The notes under the pieces are model-generated. The model worked only from the letters and a program-made list of their open reading frames with translations, was not told the DNA's origin and did not search any database. A stretch of DNA of 10,000 bases from Anaerolinea sp. (GTDB lineage Bacteria; Chloroflexota; Anaerolineae; Anaerolineales; Anaerolineaceae), in the NCBI GenBank assembly GCA_020216845.1, contig JAIWNK010000092.1:1-10000 (forward strand). The letters run 5' to 3'. Each line of letters opens with the position of its first letter. Positions within the stretch are counted from its first letter, which is position 1. The position numbers were made by a program, and so were the translations under genes. Below, piece by piece: positions 3,977 through 10,000 of this stretch.

Positions 3977-5602
3977 TCAAAGAAGAGCCAGCAGTCGTTC
4001 TGCCTCGCGCAATGGCTGCCCTGCTTCATCTACCGCCACACAAGCCCCCTCGACAATCCGCGTGCGCATTTGCCCGCGCCCAAAACGATTGTTACGCAGC
4101 TGCGGCGCATCCAAAATTCCACTCGTCACCGCCGCTGCAAGCACACCAGCATCCGCCCATGGATCAGCTACGTGTGCACCTAGTCGTCGAATAGCTTCAA
4201 GCGTCTCTTGCGCCTCTTGCACCAAATATGCACGACGCCTGCTTATCGCTGGGTCTGCCGTCATATCTGGAGCGCCACGCAAAGCGTTATCAATCACCCG
4301 ACGAGCCAAACCACAAGCCTCTATGACATCTTCCGCCGTTGCAGCATGGTGTGCCTCCGTATGCCCCACCACATGAACAATATGCGGATGCAACGCCATT
4401 TGCACATAAATGCTGGCTGCCAAATGCGCCCGCGCCGCAGCCAGATCAAGCGGATAGCTCAACAACCCCGTGCGCACTTGCCGCCAAACACGAAAAGTTG
4501 GCCCTTGCAACGGCTCAACCAAATCCAACAGCGCCAACATCTTTGCCAGGTCCATCGCGTCCGAAAGCCCCGGTGGGCTGTTAAACATCAGCTGCGCAAT
4601 GTAATCCTTCACACCAAACGCACGCGCATTGTAGGCCGCCAAAAAACCTGACACAACAAAGACCACATCCGATGCATCGCGCATGCCCCAATGGTGTGGC
4701 TCATTCAGCTCAACCGGCATTTCCCTTTGCCCATACCAGGCCATCACTTGTTGATGCTCGCGAATCGAACCCTCCAAATCCCATGGTCCGCGCCCATCCA
4801 TTTGATTGAACCAAAACAACGGAATGGCACACCAGGCGTTACGAATCGTGCGCACATACATCTCCGCCAGACGAATAAAATCATCCGTCCCAGAATATGT
4901 GCGCATCAATGGGTAATTCCCCCGACGGCTTGCCTGATACAAAGCCCGATAGTCTTCCTCCGTGCGCACCGGCACCCCTCCAGCACCCTTTCGGCGCGGG
5001 TCCTGCCGCTCCGGATGATAAAAGTTCTCTTGCGCATCCTGATCAATCCCCAGTGAAATCACATCTAACGCCCCTGCCTCGGCAATTTTCTCCACCCCGC
5101 GCAGGCTGTCTTCCATCGTTGGCAGCCCAAAGTGATGCCGCAGCAAAGGATACGGCGACTTCCAGCGGATCCGCTCAATTGTGTTTTGCGGGAAATCAAC
5201 CTCCGTCATTTGCACTGCCGTTTGGCCCTTTAGGTAAGCCAACACCATCTCTGGCGTTTCGCTCCCATCAAAGATGCGCTCAAAAAAGCCGCCCAAACGA
5301 GCTGCGCGCTCAGCCATTGGCGGCGTCCCTGCAAAGGCAAAGCGCACACCCGCTGACCGCAGATCATCCGCTGCTTCTGCAAACTCCCCCAGCAAGCGTT
5401 CCCCCGTCTCTGGCGTTAGCCGATAAGAAACCCCAACCAAGTCTGCCCCCTCTTGTCGAGCGGCTTGCAACATTTCTTGAATTGAGACTGCCGGCCCTAA
5501 AAACACCGTCCGCCAACCAGCTGCCTCAGCCAATCGCAAGAAATTACTGACTCCAGCCACATGCACACACTCCCCCAAGGCCCCAGCGACAACTGTTTTC
5601 AT
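3977..5602 (-). CDS. N-terminal cobalamin-binding domain fused to a mutase-like catalytic region, function unknown
   Basis: The 541-residue protein starts with a flavodoxin-like cobalamin-binding domain (about residues 1-130). CVHVAG at 12-17 aligns with the DxHxxG motif and gives a candidate cobalt-ligating histidine at 14. SYRL at 59-62 stands in the SxL position and FAGTPP near 90-95 where Gly-Gly is usual. The Asp of DxHxxG is replaced by Cys. The following 300-400 residues look like an alpha/beta barrel of the aminomutase or glutamate-mutase-E kind, with GGVPVRTEEDY, RTYSGTDD, NQMDGRGPWDLEG, NEPHHWGMRD and a histidine-rich GHTEAHH near 413-419. I do not recognise a characterised enzyme; a B12-dependent mutase or methyl-transfer protein acting on an amino acid is inference. 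The ATG at 5602 directly follows AAAGGAGGT; a GTG 15 bases earlier is less likely. The next gene encodes an opine dehydrogenase family protein and probably works with it. Confidence 0.75.
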   Translation of the reverse strand: MKTVVAGALGECVHVAGVSNFLRLAEAAGWRTVFLGPAVSIQEMLQAARQEGADLVGVSYRLTPETGERLLGEFAEAADDLRSAGVRFAFAGTPPMAERAARLGGFFERIFDGSETPEMVLAYLKGQTAVQMTEVDFPQNTIERIRWKSPYPLLRHHFGLPTMEDSLRGVEKIAEAGALDVISLGIDQDAQENFYHPERQDPRRKGAGGVPVRTEEDYRALYQASRRGNYPLMRTYSGTDDFIRLAEMYVRTIRNAWCAIPLFWFNQMDGRGPWDLEGSIREHQQVMAWYGQREMPVELNEPHHWGMRDASDVVFVVSGFLAAYNARAFGVKDYIAQLMFNSPPGLSDAMDLAKMLALLDLVEPLQGPTFRVWRQVRTGLLSYPLDLAAARAHLAASIYVQMALHPHIVHVVGHTEAHHAATAEDVIEACGLARRVIDNALRGAPDMTADPAISRRRAYLVQEAQETLEAIRRLGAHVADPWADAGVLAAAVTSGILDAPQLRNNRFGRGQMRTRIVEGACVAVDEAGQPLREAERLLALL

Positions 5603-5637
5603 CAAACCTCCTTTCACATCGAGGTGTACAATTTAAG

Positions 5638-5666
5638 ATTATAGAAGGTTTATCACCCTCAGTCAA
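5638..5666 (-). promoter_or_regulatory. Near-consensus sigma70 promoter of the cobalamin-protein/opine dehydrogenase operon
   Basis: On the minus strand, TTGACT (5666-5661) is separated by exactly 17 bases from a perfect TATAAT (5643-5638). The -35 lies across the last two codons of the large regulator gene and the first base of its stop. Transcription would start near 5631, giving a leader of about 29 bases with a strong AAAGGAGG site. Confidence 0.85.
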
Positions 5667-8600
5667 GCATTTCAAGTTTTTGGTCGTTGTCCACAACTTG
5701 TTGAAGCGCCTGATTGGCAAGGGCCTCAAAGGTCTGCTGTTGAAGCAAAGCAATACGCTCAGCCGACAGCCGCCCCGCACAGCCGCTTAACACCGCTGCT
5801 GCCTTGTCGCGCGTTTGCTGATCCCCCCCCTCAAAATTCATTGCAAAAGTCAGCCAGGCCAATGCCTGCTCTTCTTCCTTTTGGCCGACAAAAGTCTCCG
5901 CTAACCCCACCAAAACATCTATCCCAACCAGGAGCATACCAGCCTGCAAAGCGATCTGCAAAGCTTCAGCATACGTCCGCCTTGCAGCGTTCACCTTCGC
6001 TTGCATCAGCAACAAGCCTGCCAGGCTATTCAAGACAGATAGCCGCAGTTCATTGGAACGCAGTTCATCGGCAAGCACCAAAGCCTCCTGATAATGTTGC
6101 TCAGCCAACTGCACCTGTCCCAAAACTTTTTCAACGTCTCCCAAATGTTTCAAAGTGCTAACAACCCCCCAACGAAACCCAATTTCGCGACAAATGCTCA
6201 GGCATTCCTGCCGCAAAGCCAAGGCATGTTCAAAATCGCCCAACAAGTAAGCCACATTCCCACGATTATGCAAACTGCGCGCAATCCCAGCACGGTCACC
6301 CAGTTGGCAATACAACCTCTGACTTTCTTCCAGGTATTGCATTGTCTCGGTATGACGTGCTGCCCTCCCCGCCAAAATAGCCAAATTGCCCAAATTCTTG
6401 GCTATTCCCCAGCGATCCCCCAAAGAACGATACATGGTCAGACTTTCTTGATAATATCGTTCGGCCTCATCATACTGCCCTAACGAAAGCCCCACATGTC
6501 CTTGCAACAACAACGCCATTGCTTCCACATCCACACGCCCGCTCTCCCTGCTCAGATGCAATGCCTTATCCAACGCGTCCTGTGTTGCCTTGTAATCCTG
6601 CAAATCTAACAATGCCCGTCCACGCACCATCCAGGCATATCCGAGTCGTCCCCCTTGTAGCATCGGCAATGCTTGCTCTATGAGCGCAAGAGCCTTCGCA
6701 TAATTCCCCAACTGCACCTCAAACACAGCCTGATAGCTCAACGCAACCGGAAACAACTTTGCGAACGCGTCTTTACTTGCCGCTGCCAAATCCGCAAAAA
6801 TACGCTGACCTTCCACATACCAACTGCGCATTTCCAAAAAAAGAGCCAACCCGTCCACAGCCCGTTCAAGCGCACCCTCGTCTTGGTTTTCTATCGCCCA
6901 TCGCCATGCAGCACGCACATTTTCCATCTCAACCGCAATCGAATCCAACACCAGCAATTGTTGATCACGCAACAGCAATGAATATTGTTCTCCCAGCCAA
7001 GACAAGTAAAACAACGCGTGATGGTGTGTTGCCTGCTCAAGTTTTTCAGGCTCCTCAACCAACTTCTCGTTTGCAAATTGCCGCACAAGGTTATGCAAAT
7101 CCCATCTTCCATCGCCCGCGAACTGCACCAAGCCCCACTCCATCAAAGCTTGCAAATCTTGCTCCGTTGCTTCCGCCAACTGAACAGCTGCCAATTTTGT
7201 AAAACCGCCCTGGAAAACAGACAGCGCTTGCAACACCGCACGCAGATAAGGGGGTAGCAACCTCCACGAATGTTCAAACACAGCTCGCAAACTCCGATGT
7301 CGCGTCAGCGCATCGCGTTGACTCGCACTGACAAAGCCCAAATCCGCCTGCACCTGCTGAAAAATCTGTGCACAACTCAAGGAACGTGTCCAGCCTGCTG
7401 TCAGCTCAATTGCCAGGGGCGAGCCCTGCAACAACTTGCACACCTGCGCAACCACCTCGCGTTCGGCTTTCACATCCACCCCCACACGCCCGGCCACCTG
7501 TTCAAATAACGCAATTGCCTCCTCTGCCCCATCGCCCACATCCAAGCCCTCAACCCCCAAAACAATCTCTGAGCGCAATTTTAGGGGTGCGCGTGACGTA
7601 ACAAGCAACTTCACCCCCGGCGCCTGCTGCAAGATCTGCCCAATCAACACCATCGCCTCATTTTGCGCCTGCTCATCAGCTGGCAACAAATGCTCATAAT
7701 TGTCCAACACAATTAGCATCTCTTTACCACTCAAGAAATTGAGCATCTGCGGCACAAAATCGCCTGTGCCAAAGAAGCGATAGCCAATTACCTCGGCCAA
7801 CACACTTGCAAGCAAACGGCTCTCCGCCACATCCGTCAACCCCACAAAATAAACCCCATCCGCAAACAAACCAACTTGCATTCGCAAAACTTCCAACGCC
7901 AAGCGCGTCTTTCCAATTCCACCCACACCCAAAAGCACCAACAACCGACAATTAGGATCCGCCATCAACGTCGAGAGCTCATCCAAGATCTTGCTTCGGC
8001 CAACAAATGCCAAGTCAGAATCTGGCAAATGTGGCTGCGGCACAACAGCAATTGCCGGTTGCACCGCATCACCACGACAAATGGCCTGATACAATCCCTG
8101 GAGCTCTTCCATTGGTTGAACGCCCATTTCGCGCCAAAGATAGCGACTCACGGCCCGATATTGCGCCAGGGCTGCTGAATTTTGCCCTTCAATCGCCAGC
8201 AAACGAATTAACAAAGCATGAGCGTGCTCATCCCAGGGTGCAATCCGCACCAATCTTTCCGCCAATTGCCGAGCCTGACCAAATTGCCCTCGACGCTGAT
8301 AATAATCCGCCAAAAGCGTCAAAGCCTCTATGGCTTTTCGCTCGAATCGCTCGCGCTCAATCAGCAACCACTCCTCAAACAAATCACTCCCAGACAAAGA
8401 AATTCCGCTTAGCAGCGTACCTTCATACGCATCCACCACATGGATCAAAGCACGCACGTCCAAACGCTGACGGCCCAAAGATTCTCGCCGCGTTGCATAC
8501 AAAGCTTTGTCTAAGTTTCTTTCAAAGCAGACTGCATCCGTCTCAATTGGGGCTTGCAGATTAAGTTGCACCTCTTCGCGCGTGATCTGAAGAAATGAGC

Positions 8601-8844
8601 TTTCCTCTGTTTCCCCCAATGCCTTACGCAATCCGGATAACGTCTGCCGCAAACTATGTGAGGCTTTTTCTTCCGACTGATCGCTCCATAGCAAAGCAGC
8701 CAAGCGAGCACGCGGCTGAGGTGTTGCCCCCTCTAAAGCCAAATAAGCCAACAACGCCTTAGACTTATCTGCATCCAGGCTAACAACCTTGCCATCCAAT
8801 AGTAGGCGAAAGCCACCCAACAAAAAAAGCTGCAATCTTTTCAT
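5659..8844 (-). CDS. AfsR-like SARP/BTAD transcriptional regulator with NB-ARC ATPase and TPR domains
   Basis: This 1061-residue cytoplasmic regulator has the AfsR domain order. Residues 1-97 form an OmpR/SARP-type winged helix (LQLFLLGGFRLLLDG, then ALLAYLAL and SLRQTLSGLRKALGE). Residues about 102-257 form the bacterial transcriptional activation domain (BTAD). Residues about 278-560 form an NB-ARC (STAND) ATPase with Walker A GVGGIGKT at 306-313, Walker B LIVLDN with Asp381, LLVTSR at 413-418 and GSPLAIEL at 474-481. Residues about 700-1000 carry tetratricopeptide repeats. In this family the ATPase and TPR parts act as a signal-gated switch and the winged helix binds direct heptamer repeats to activate transcription. 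A longer in-frame start is possible, but ATG 8844 begins the domain correctly, has no ribosome site, and lies 6 bases after a TATAAT, suggesting a leaderless message. A likely operator lies in its divergent upstream region. Confidence 0.93.
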   Translation of the reverse strand: MKRLQLFLLGGFRLLLDGKVVSLDADKSKALLAYLALEGATPQPRARLAALLWSDQSEEKASHSLRQTLSGLRKALGETEESSFLQITREEVQLNLQAPIETDAVCFERNLDKALYATRRESLGRQRLDVRALIHVVDAYEGTLLSGISLSGSDLFEEWLLIERERFERKAIEALTLLADYYQRRGQFGQARQLAERLVRIAPWDEHAHALLIRLLAIEGQNSAALAQYRAVSRYLWREMGVQPMEELQGLYQAICRGDAVQPAIAVVPQPHLPDSDLAFVGRSKILDELSTLMADPNCRLLVLLGVGGIGKTRLALEVLRMQVGLFADGVYFVGLTDVAESRLLASVLAEVIGYRFFGTGDFVPQMLNFLSGKEMLIVLDNYEHLLPADEQAQNEAMVLIGQILQQAPGVKLLVTSRAPLKLRSEIVLGVEGLDVGDGAEEAIALFEQVAGRVGVDVKAEREVVAQVCKLLQGSPLAIELTAGWTRSLSCAQIFQQVQADLGFVSASQRDALTRHRSLRAVFEHSWRLLPPYLRAVLQALSVFQGGFTKLAAVQLAEATEQDLQALMEWGLVQFAGDGRWDLHNLVRQFANEKLVEEPEKLEQATHHHALFYLSWLGEQYSLLLRDQQLLVLDSIAVEMENVRAAWRWAIENQDEGALERAVDGLALFLEMRSWYVEGQRIFADLAAASKDAFAKLFPVALSYQAVFEVQLGNYAKALALIEQALPMLQGGRLGYAWMVRGRALLDLQDYKATQDALDKALHLSRESGRVDVEAMALLLQGHVGLSLGQYDEAERYYQESLTMYRSLGDRWGIAKNLGNLAILAGRAARHTETMQYLEESQRLYCQLGDRAGIARSLHNRGNVAYLLGDFEHALALRQECLSICREIGFRWGVVSTLKHLGDVEKVLGQVQLAEQHYQEALVLADELRSNELRLSVLNSLAGLLLMQAKVNAARRTYAEALQIALQAGMLLVGIDVLVGLAETFVGQKEEEQALAWLTFAMNFEGGDQQTRDKAAAVLSGCAGRLSAERIALLQQQTFEALANQALQQVVDNDQKLEMLD

Positions 8845-8850
8845 TAAACT

Positions 8851-8879
8851 ATTATACAGAAAAGCATTGTTTTTTGACG
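8851..8879 (-). promoter_or_regulatory. Promoter of the regulator gene, predicted leaderless
   Basis: A perfect TATAAT on the minus strand (8856-8851) ends 6 bases before the ATG at 8844, which would put the first transcribed base on the A of ATG. The -35 position at 17-base spacing (8879-8874, CGTCAA read on the minus strand) is poor. It coincides with the first TTTGACG heptamer of the opposite strand, so a protein bound there could control the regulator's own expression. Confidence 0.6.
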
Positions 8880-8890
8880 TTCCTTTGACG
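8873..8890 (+). promoter_or_regulatory. SARP-type operator: two TTTGACG direct repeats 11 bp apart
   Basis: Perfect heptamers TTTGACG at 8873-8879 and 8884-8890 are separated by 4 bases, an 11-bp period, and the second ends exactly 8 bases before the TATAAT at 8899. SARP regulators of Streptomyces are known to bind heptamer direct repeats with this period whose last copy ends 8 bases upstream of the -10. The divergent gene encodes a SARP-domain protein, so it is the obvious candidate ligand. Confidence 0.78.
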
Positions 8891-8898
8891 CCATTTCT

Positions 8899-8904
8899 TA
8901 TAAT
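8899..8904 (+). promoter_or_regulatory. -10 element of the small-protein gene, predicted leaderless and activator-dependent
   Basis: A perfect TATAAT lies 6 bases before the ATG at 8911, placing the transcription start on the start codon. The nearest -35-like hexamer, TTGACG at 8874-8879, is 19 bases away, a poor spacing that fits a promoter needing an activator bound to the overlapping repeats. Confidence 0.72.
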
Positions 8905-8910
8905 GGAACT

Positions 8911-9111
8911 ATGAAACCACCTTATCACGCATTTATGCTACGCATTTGGCCAACGGACGAACAGCACTCCCAATGGCGTGCCTCTCTTGAAGATCCGCAC
9001 ACCCACCACATTCAAAACTTCAACACACTTGAGGATTTGTGCACTTACTTACAGCAAAAGCGCTTTCAAGAAAAGTCGCCACAAAAACCATTCAATCGCC
9101 AAGTCCCTTGA
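8911..9111 (+). CDS. 66-residue protein of unknown function, probable target of the AfsR-like regulator
   Basis: This is a soluble 66-residue protein with no signal peptide or membrane segment. The core MLRIWP, then WRASLEDPHTHH, then FNTLEDLCTYLQQK resembles small proteins I recall as frequent neighbours of BTAD or LuxR regulators in Chloroflexota, which share a WRASLE motif followed by a Phe-x-x-Leu-Glu helix. The pattern suggests a short beta hairpin followed by an amphipathic helix. No function is known to me. It is divergent from the regulator across 66 bases, and its promoter has a SARP-type operator. The ATG has no Shine-Dalgarno and directly follows the -10 at leaderless spacing. In position and size it parallels afsS (63 residues) of Streptomyces, but the repeated motif of AfsS is not visible, so it is an analogue at most. 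Confidence 0.8.
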   Translation: MKPPYHAFMLRIWPTDEQHSQWRASLEDPHTHHIQNFNTLEDLCTYLQQKRFQEKSPQKPFNRQVP

Positions 9112-9136
9112 CACTCATCTGCATTCGCCTCATAAT
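9108..9136 (+). promoter_or_regulatory. Consensus -35 promoter for the glycosidase-like gene, overlapping a stop codon and predicted leaderless
   Basis: A perfect TTGACA (9108-9113) and CATAAT (9131-9136) are 17 bases apart. The TGA stop of the 66-residue gene (9109-9111) lies inside the -35 hexamer. The -10 ends 6 bases before the ATG at 9143 and no Shine-Dalgarno is present, so the mRNA should start on the ATG. Confidence 0.82.
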
Positions 9137-9142
9137 TAACGC

Positions 9143-10000
9143 ATGACCAGCAGAATCATCCGCTTACTGCTTTTCCTTGCCGCATTGCTATCGCTGGCAT
9201 TTTTTCTCCCCACCCTAAGTCACACCCCCCCACAGCAACTGAACATCAGCGCTGCCCAGCCAGCACGCGAACTACCTGCCCCAACAGTCGTCCCCTTTGC
9301 CCAAACCCTTTCGGCAGCCAATGGCTGGAAAGCCCTTGCCCCCGGCATTGAATATCGTGAATGGATTCTGCCCGACCCTAACCGGGTATATGTCGCTCGG
9401 TTTGATCGCTTCTCTCCTGCCAACACCTTCATTGATAGCATTCTTAACAACGGCGCACTTCGGCGCGAATTTCAAACCATTCGCCAAAGCGCTGCATTGT
9501 ATGAAGAAGCCATCAATGCCTGGCCGCTGCCCGAAAGCCCATCCGGAAACCGCACCCAGGTAGTCGTTGCCATCAATGGCTCTTTTGTGCAAAAGGATGG
9601 TTTGCCAGAAAATGGCCAAATTCAAGGCGGATGGTTGATCAAACCCTATCAAACTGCCTGGCTCGGCGGCAGCGGCAGCGGTTTCGTTTGGGGCCTAAAC
9701 CGACAAGCCTTCATTGGCCTCTGCACAGATGCGCAGCCGCGCGAGCAGGTGATTGAATTTCCGGGCCTTGGTCTCAGCTTTCCACTCACACACATCAATT
9801 CCCCTACGCCTGGCGAAGCCGATGTTGCCCTCTACACCGCTCAATATGAAACCCGTACGCCAGCCGGCAGTCGCAGTGAAGTGCTTGTCTCACTCGATGC
9901 CCCCCTTGCACCCAACCCACGCGGCTACGTCATTGGCACCGTCACAGACGTTCACCCTTATCGCAGCGGCACCGTCATCCCTTTTGACCAAATTGTGCTT
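9143..10000 (+). CDS. Phosphodiester glycosidase (NAGPA)-like exported protein, partial (runs off right edge)
   Basis: From the ATG at 9143 the frame stays open for 286 codons to the edge. Residues 4-25 are a basic then hydrophobic stretch (RIIRLLLFLAALLSLAFFLP), a signal peptide or signal anchor, so the rest is extracytoplasmic. After a Pro- and Ala-rich linker, the segment from about residue 60 (WKALAPGIEYREW, then RVYVARFD at 81-88) and VVVAINGSF at 140-148 followed by GGSGSGFVWGLNRQAFIG at 175-192 match the style of the phosphodiester glycosidase family named after the enzyme that uncovers mannose-6-phosphate. Bacterial members probably cleave phosphodiester-linked sugars of the envelope; the substrate is unknown. 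It begins 31 bases after the small gene with its own promoter. The C-terminal part of the domain is not in view. Confidence 0.75.
   Translation, partial: MTSRIIRLLLFLAALLSLAFFLPTLSHTPPQQLNISAAQPARELPAPTVVPFAQTLSAANGWKALAPGIEYREWILPDPNRVYVARFDRFSPANTFIDSILNNGALRREFQTIRQSAALYEEAINAWPLPESPSGNRTQVVVAINGSFVQKDGLPENGQIQGGWLIKPYQTAWLGGSGSGFVWGLNRQAFIGLCTDAQPREQVIEFPGLGLSFPLTHINSPTPGEADVALYTAQYETRTPAGSRSEVLVSLDAPLAPNPRGYVIGTVTDVHPYRSGTVIPFDQIVL

Follow-up and report, generated by a model that had tools for sequence, protein, structure and literature searches.

The window analysed here, a stretch of 10,000 nucleotides of Anaerolinea sp., carries two divergent genes separated by 66 bp. On the reverse strand lies the gene of a large regulator of 1061 amino acids (5659..8844), on the forward strand a small gene encoding 66 amino acids (8911..9111). 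The ORF of the regulator was listed from 5659 to 8928 with a GTG start; the ATG at 8844 was adopted instead. Beyond the regulator an ORF of 546 amino acids with a B12-binding domain was found on the same strand (3977-5617). Control of antibiotic biosynthesis is a role of SARPs in Streptomyces that lies outside their fold or mechanism, and no biosynthetic cluster was seen in the ORF list of the window.

The initial annotation described the divergent neighbour of the small gene as a SARP-domain protein, and both Pfam and the alignment to AfsR bore this out. Residues 103-255 matched BTAD with 69.8 bits (cut-off 22.1), followed by matches to NB-ARC (33.2 bits, cut-off 23.5) and TPR_12 (91 bits), while Trans_reg_C with 19.7 bits stayed under its cut-off of 26.2. 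Residues 5-593 aligned to Streptomyces AfsR (8k60, 8jke), and the SARP part of AfsR (8hvr) matched residues 5-259 with a phmmer E-value of 2.6e-5. The regulator thus has the make-up of a SARP, in which BTAD comes after an OmpR-type winged helix at the N-terminus, and its NB-ARC/NOD and TPR parts are those of the large AfsR type. The recognition helix is predicted at residues 61-76 (ASHSLRQTLSGLRKAL, 8617..8664, reverse strand), based on the AfsR alignment, the contacts given in the passages of PMC10936776 used here and the co-variation described below.

Direct reading of the intergenic region confirmed the annotated arrangement TTTGACG-N4-TTTGACG-N8-TATAAT facing the small gene. The heptamer TTTGACG is present twice on the forward strand (8873-8879 and 8884-8890) with TTCC in between, which gives a period of 11 bp. 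The second copy is followed by CCATTTCT (8 nt), the -10 element TATAAT (8899..8904, forward strand), GGAACT (6 nt) and the ATG at 8911. Taken as 8-mers, the copies form the upstream direct repeat DRup (TTTTGACG, 8872..8879, forward strand) and the downstream direct repeat DRdown (CTTTGACG, 8883..8890, forward strand), predicted to span -39 to -32 and -28 to -21, respectively. The putative operator overlaps the -35 region at a set distance from the -10 element, counted from a predicted start site. The pattern TTTGACG-N4-TTTGACG matched once in the window and in none of 200 shuffles. A search of the genome for the same box, as suggested in the initial annotation, gave two exact matches in the 1.83-Mb assembly and none for the reversed control. 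Allowing up to two mismatches, 28 matches (13 forward, 15 reverse) were found in this genome compared to 29 for the reversed control. Only the exact copies therefore stand out, and no broad regulon is claimed.

A second TATAAT (8851..8856, reverse strand), the -10 element of the regulator gene, is located 6 nt before the ATG of the regulator. As the same distance is found at the small gene, both genes look leaderless. Upstream of the regulator gene an exact TATAAT on its strand was present in 69 of 133 relatives, compared to 8 for the reversed word. The gene that follows the small gene carries a promoter-like site of another kind, TTGACA-17-CATAAT (9108-9136), which contrasts with the putative SARP promoter; here, too, the ATG lies 6 nt past the -10 element, so that the leaderless geometry is seen again (9108-9143).

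Conservation of the repeat in related loci

In total, 193 loci were gathered from relatives, named genome contigs, 400 genomes sampled from the order and 100 further stretches. A match to the small gene was present in 190 of them, 170 were distinct, and in 133 of these 170 the DNA-binding domain of a divergent regulator lay no more than 1 kb away, as detected by a profile built from these regulators. Among 31 loci (before deduplication) with at least 1 kb upstream and no divergent match, such a domain was found in other orientations in none either.

The test for repeats assumed no particular word and recorded the best 8-nt self-match of each upstream region at every lag. At lag 11 a direct repeat (7/8) was found in 106 of the 133 upstream regions of divergent pairs, 50 of which matched in all eight positions; the remaining 27 had no such repeat. 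All other lags from 4 to 45 gave 1-15 regions at 7/8 with the exception of lag 22 (24 regions), as triple repeats would give. Shuffled upstream regions, with dinucleotides preserved where possible and plain shuffling otherwise, yielded a mean of 7.0 and a maximum of 13 at lag 11 (50 rounds). Among native segments of 176 nt that lie away from the promoter in these loci, 32 of 665 had the repeat. The first, smaller sample had given 28 of 34, and 15 of 29 regions for which no divergent regulator was recorded still carried a lag-11 repeat. Heptameric direct repeats at 11-bp period are thus found in the window as well as in its relatives. The comparison of orthologous intergenic regions proposed in the initial annotation therefore turned out in favour of its SARP-operator interpretation (106 of 133 at lag 11, 1-24 of 133 at other lags), which is supported at the level of sequence.

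Since the operator score rewards the repeat and the -10 element jointly, the position of the latter was tested apart, using the repeat alone as anchor. Measured from the centre of the lower repeat in the 106 loci, -10-like hexamers were enriched at downstream offsets of 11-15 nt (offset 12 in 28 of 104). A second, smaller peak was located 11 nt (one repeat) further; the best-matching pair is there taken as the upper pair of a triple. The type TGACG-N6-TGACG was present in 29 of the 170 small-gene loci, and its best -10 element within 6-12 nt was found at 9 nt in 23 loci and at 11-12 nt in five; the window was the only locus with 8 nt. The annotated distance of 8 nt is thus correct for the window, while as a rule 9 nt is the usual value. 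Counting back from a -10 element starting at -12, the usual 8-mers are placed at -40..-33 and -29..-22. In-frame starts 4-9 nt past the -10 element were present at 24 of 74 strong operators, a raw count without shuffled baseline.

Operator words and the recognition helix

The repeat word differs between regulator/small-gene pairs, even inside one genome. A best-scoring operator was available for 168 regions. Of these, 132 had such a divergent regulator; the score was at least 13 in 112 of the latter, and in 110 the helix was also free of gaps. These 110 pairs were used for the residue-sharing comparison, and 83 of them (80% clustering) for the mutual-information and relatedness-corrected tests.

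Helix and word groups were read by eye, and in several groups the low-scoring rows depart from the pattern. Words of the type TTTTGACG accompany xHxLRQ helices including that of the window, (A)TAAACGA accompanies AKNNLRQ, TCACG xTNLRQ, TCCTTACG xSNLRQ and TCTAAGCG LRT. Furthermore, TCTGAACG often occurs with LRV, TCTGAAGG with LSV and TTGAAACG with LRL. CCACG or GCACG is found with LRY and LRF where the operator is clear, and GATA or AGAG-like ends with LSQ.

A CG common to both repeats was present in 73 of 94 pairs with R66 compared to 2 of 16 pairs without it (Fisher 9.6e-7). This held at 65% clustering (35/45 vs 2/11, 4.4e-4); at 55% clustering, with 18 representatives, the association was not significant (10/13 vs 2/5; p 0.27 and 0.099). 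The highest mutual information was found for q67 with bases 4 and 5 (z 5.7 and 5.2) and for q63 with base 5; q71 with base 3 was lower (z 3.4). However, q54, which corresponds to no AfsR contact, reached z 5.1 with base 4 in this raw test, and the relatedness-corrected test was therefore given more weight. Once identity in the remainder of the domain was corrected for, q66, q63 and q67 led the partial correlations. Six of the ten top positions were AfsR DNA contacts, although the contact R94 (q73) had the last rank of all and R92 (q71) fell outside the top 16.

Partners less than 65% identical that share residues 63, 66 and 67 had 4.87 of 8 operator bases in common, compared to 3.87 for those sharing none or one (n=77), and the nearest partner by non-helix identity had 4.42 of 8; the Wilcoxon values for this comparison treat related loci as independent. 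The co-variation of helix and operator is partly phylogenetic. When two operators of one genome were compared, in 20 genomes chosen by hand, five or fewer of the 8 bases were shared in 21 of 29 cases. As an example, genome G041 carries TTTTGACG, TGGTCAGA and CTAAACGA beside three different helices.

The initial annotation suggested that TTTGACG might define the recognition sequence of this regulator branch. The co-variation with the helix supports this for the branch, but TTTGACG is one of many such words and not that of the whole group. Because the word changes with the DNA-reading helix, the operator letters of such switches would be partly predictable from the regulator protein.

Lipoprotein-like genes as a likely further target

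The pattern TTTGACG-N4-TTTGACG-N8..10-TANNNT was searched in 61 genomes with no protein in the query. Seven matches were found and none with the reversed control. Three were located at small genes (the window, G006 and G041), and four before genes which appear lipoprotein-like by eye (signal peptide and cysteine). These four were on contig C46 of the window's own genome (G000) and in G036, G022 and G058. The match on C46 is the second exact box of the own genome and has TATGCT as its -10-like hexamer. It adjoins a terminator-like stem, but the -10 pattern and the homologous lipoproteins speak for keeping it.

Three of the four lipoprotein-like proteins are homologous: those of G000 and G022 share 47% identity over 480 amino acids, and that of G036 shares 32-36% over about 210 amino acids. 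Box and -10 element thus precede homologous lipoprotein-like genes in three genera, including that of the window. Two of the three proteins (L220, L221 and L223 from G036, G000 and G022, respectively) had a regulator-propeller match. In G036 the box lies between two lipoprotein-like homologues that are arranged in tandem.

Homologues of the G000 protein were present in 25 of the 61 genomes (E ≤ 1e-5), some matching its later part only. At E-values below 1e-16 there were 15 matches, 13 of which were examined: nine were located behind an 11-bp repeat, five with their own and four via the small gene, and four had no box. A lipoprotein-like gene directly 3' of the small gene and on the same strand was found in G004 (twice), G006 and G042, the repeat word of G042 being TCTGAAGG and not TTGACG. 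G013 and G024 carry their own TTGACG-type repeat before a lipoprotein-like gene. This order of small gene and lipoprotein-like gene is that of loci L014, L015, L018 and L025; in the window the small gene is not followed by a lipoprotein-like gene.

Taken as sequence evidence, these data make it likely that at least one lipoprotein-like gene is a further target. The regulator of the window is the sole BTAD match above the family cut-off in the 75.7%-complete assembly (a second match, on C33, is below it), which leaves one obvious reader for both boxes.

A predicted AfsR-type circuit and its alternatives

SARP operators are known from antibiotic clusters of Streptomyces, where afsS is a small-protein gene adjacent to afsR, as the small gene here is to the regulator gene. 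The SARP literature drawn on here comprises passages of PMC10936776, PMC5930380 and PMC10972967. According to those of PMC10936776, the afs box in the afsS promoter of Streptomyces coelicolor consists of two 11-bp direct repeats which replace a good -35 element. AfsR contacts the first 8 bp of each repeat, with DRup starting at -40, DRdown at -29 and the box ending at -19; T88 contacts base 5 of the repeat and R92 base 3, and ATP relieves an inhibition by the NOD and TPR parts.

The regulator of the window shares with AfsR, as described in these passages, the winged helix-BTAD-NOD-TPR architecture and the two 11-bp direct repeats in the place of the -35 element. If the -10 element starts at -12, relatives with 9-nt spacing match the 8-bp contact positions and the window is off by 1 nt; DRdown accordingly lies within 1 nt of its place in the afs box (PMC10936776). 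In a gapless alignment five of twelve DNA contacts of AfsR are identical (W74, R87, S91, R94 and K95 correspond to W53, R66, S70, R73 and K74) and seven differ (S46, Q48, P79, S80, Q81, T88 and R92 are replaced by A25, K27, E58, E59, K60, Q67 and G71). Unlike the AfsR system, with its box printed as CGTT(T/C)ATCGNN, the window has TTTGACG as operator word, an unnamed target family, a divergent gene order and its place in the Chloroflexota.

In the passages of PMC5930380, PimR and the SARP-LAL regulators resemble the window in heptamers with 4-bp spacers and a single target gene, and for the scn, pte and fil counterparts the operator is stated to lie between the regulator and target genes. PimR differs in its heptamer CGGCAAG, its three repeats, the lack of overlap with a -35 box and a PAS-LuxR regulator as target.

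The doubled TTTGACG is very probably the operator of the adjacent AfsR-type SARP, as predicted from sequence. As the best explanation of the whole locus we propose, with high confidence, a compact SARP circuit which activates the small protein and the lipoprotein by AfsR-like sigma adaptation. On the model of AfsR (PMC10936776), two SARP protomers would sit next to each other, each on one of the 11-bp repeats, and take the place of the -35 element. The bound SARP would dock region 4 of sigma, and RNA polymerase would start from TATAAT at or near 8911, giving a leaderless mRNA for the 66-aa protein. The second exact box on C46 would serve the lipoprotein-like gene in the same genome. The NB-ARC and TPR parts would gate the activity via ATP and a signal, as the ATP-dependent relief of NOD/TPR inhibition may by analogy apply to this regulator. 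Among relatives the operator word shifts with helix residues 63, 66 and 67, so that each pair would largely form its own circuit.

Four other readings were weighed. It appears quite unlikely that the SARP, bound to the box, acts chiefly as a repressor or chiefly on its own gene. The predicted -35 zone of the regulator gene (~8875-8880, reverse strand) overlaps DRup; a SARP bound there could therefore also lower the expression of the regulator, which would be compatible with activation of the small gene. However, it is the distance to the -10 element on the side of the small gene that is nearly constant, whereas the distance on the regulator side ranges in relatives from about 66 to several hundred nt, so that self-repression via DRup cannot be general. 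Moreover, the second box of this genome has no BTAD gene nearby.

We regard an ordinary sigma-70 promoter, with the upper TTGACG as -35 element and the second copy incidental, as very improbable. TTGACG matches TTGACA in five of six positions and TATAAT is perfect; promoters of this kind probably exist in this genome, as the TTGACA-17-CATAAT site of the next gene suggests. On the other hand, the spacers between the two copies and TATAAT are 19 nt (upper) and 8 nt (lower), both outside the range of 16-18 nt, and the site is absent from the list of the promoter scan. In many relatives the words are not -35-like at all (TCCTGATA, TCTAAGCG, TATCACG, TGGTCAGA), yet period and distance are kept. A perfect -10 element without a well-spaced -35 element fits an activator-dependent promoter.

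PHO boxes, too, consist of direct repeats with a period of 11 bp, and their reader is an OmpR-type winged helix, a fold shared by PhoP and the SARP. A PhoB/PhoP-type response regulator of the OmpR family could thus read the box in place of the adjacent SARP, and according to the literature passages used here the sequences bound by PhoP and by AfsR overlap in Streptomyces. Nevertheless, this reading has very little probability in our view, because the operators vary within a genome and follow the helix of the neighbouring BTAD protein, a variety that a single global PhoB would hardly be able to recognise. No linked response regulator is known.

In a single short intergenic region an exact pair of two short words could be luck, and no excess of degenerate copies is present in the genome; since the word is found again, with its period and place, both in relatives whose helix is the same and before homologous lipoprotein-like genes, the judgement of the initial annotation that chance is unlikely holds, and a chance repeat can practically be dismissed.

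Among the matches listed for open-licence full text, no report of SARP operators in Chloroflexota was found, and SARP together with Chloroflexi occurred only in an unrelated environmental survey. What emerges is a putative AfsR-type circuit of this phylum whose target is a small protein of an unnamed family and whose operator words follow the helix. In a broader proposal, to which we give an even chance, Chloroflexota would possess many self-contained AfsR-type circuits of fixed 11-bp architecture, each made up of a regulator, a divergent small beta-beta-beta-alpha protein and, in some genomes, a lipoprotein, with the word set largely by helix residues 63, 66 and 67 and the small protein acting as feedback partner of the NB-ARC/TPR part in an envelope-linked response. 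The role as feedback partner is a first guess from the linkage to the regulator and the small size. If true, a natural and readable SARP specificity code with several distinct operators per genome would be at hand. The set of about 110 natural regulator-operator pairs relating helix residues to bases makes SARP recognition testable and the operators of unstudied SARPs partly predictable. The large family of small proteins, as yet unnamed, also becomes accessible to study for the first time, in a phylum whose members are difficult to cultivate.

The small protein itself had no match in Pfam, NCBIfam or PHROG and only weak matches among PDB sequence profiles (best E 0.078). The AlphaFold2 model predicts three strands and a helix in the order beta-beta-beta-alpha (mean pLDDT 80.1, pTM 0.60). 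No function was assigned from known folds, since a fold search of the PDB with the model gave no match at E ≤ 0.001 (best E 0.51). The family consensus is YxSFLLRxW...WRASLEDPxT...FxxLExLxxFL. A profile of 28 relatives matched 2231 proteins, with no Pfam domains among the 120 listed, and 110 of the 400 sampled genomes of the order carried a family member (E ≤ 1e-6). The named loci include Longilinea sp., Ornatilinea apprima and many records of Anaerolineales or Chloroflexi, and the placement in Chloroflexota, given as probable in the initial annotation, is correct. On a contig labelled Candidatus Latescibacterota (L051) the small gene, a divergent regulator and a three-unit 11-bp repeat were found together, which points either to a mislabelled bin or to a transfer between phyla. 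Among six family members that were read, P0001, P0002 and P0010 consist of two full tandem copies of the domain, and P0045 carries a second copy that looks partial.
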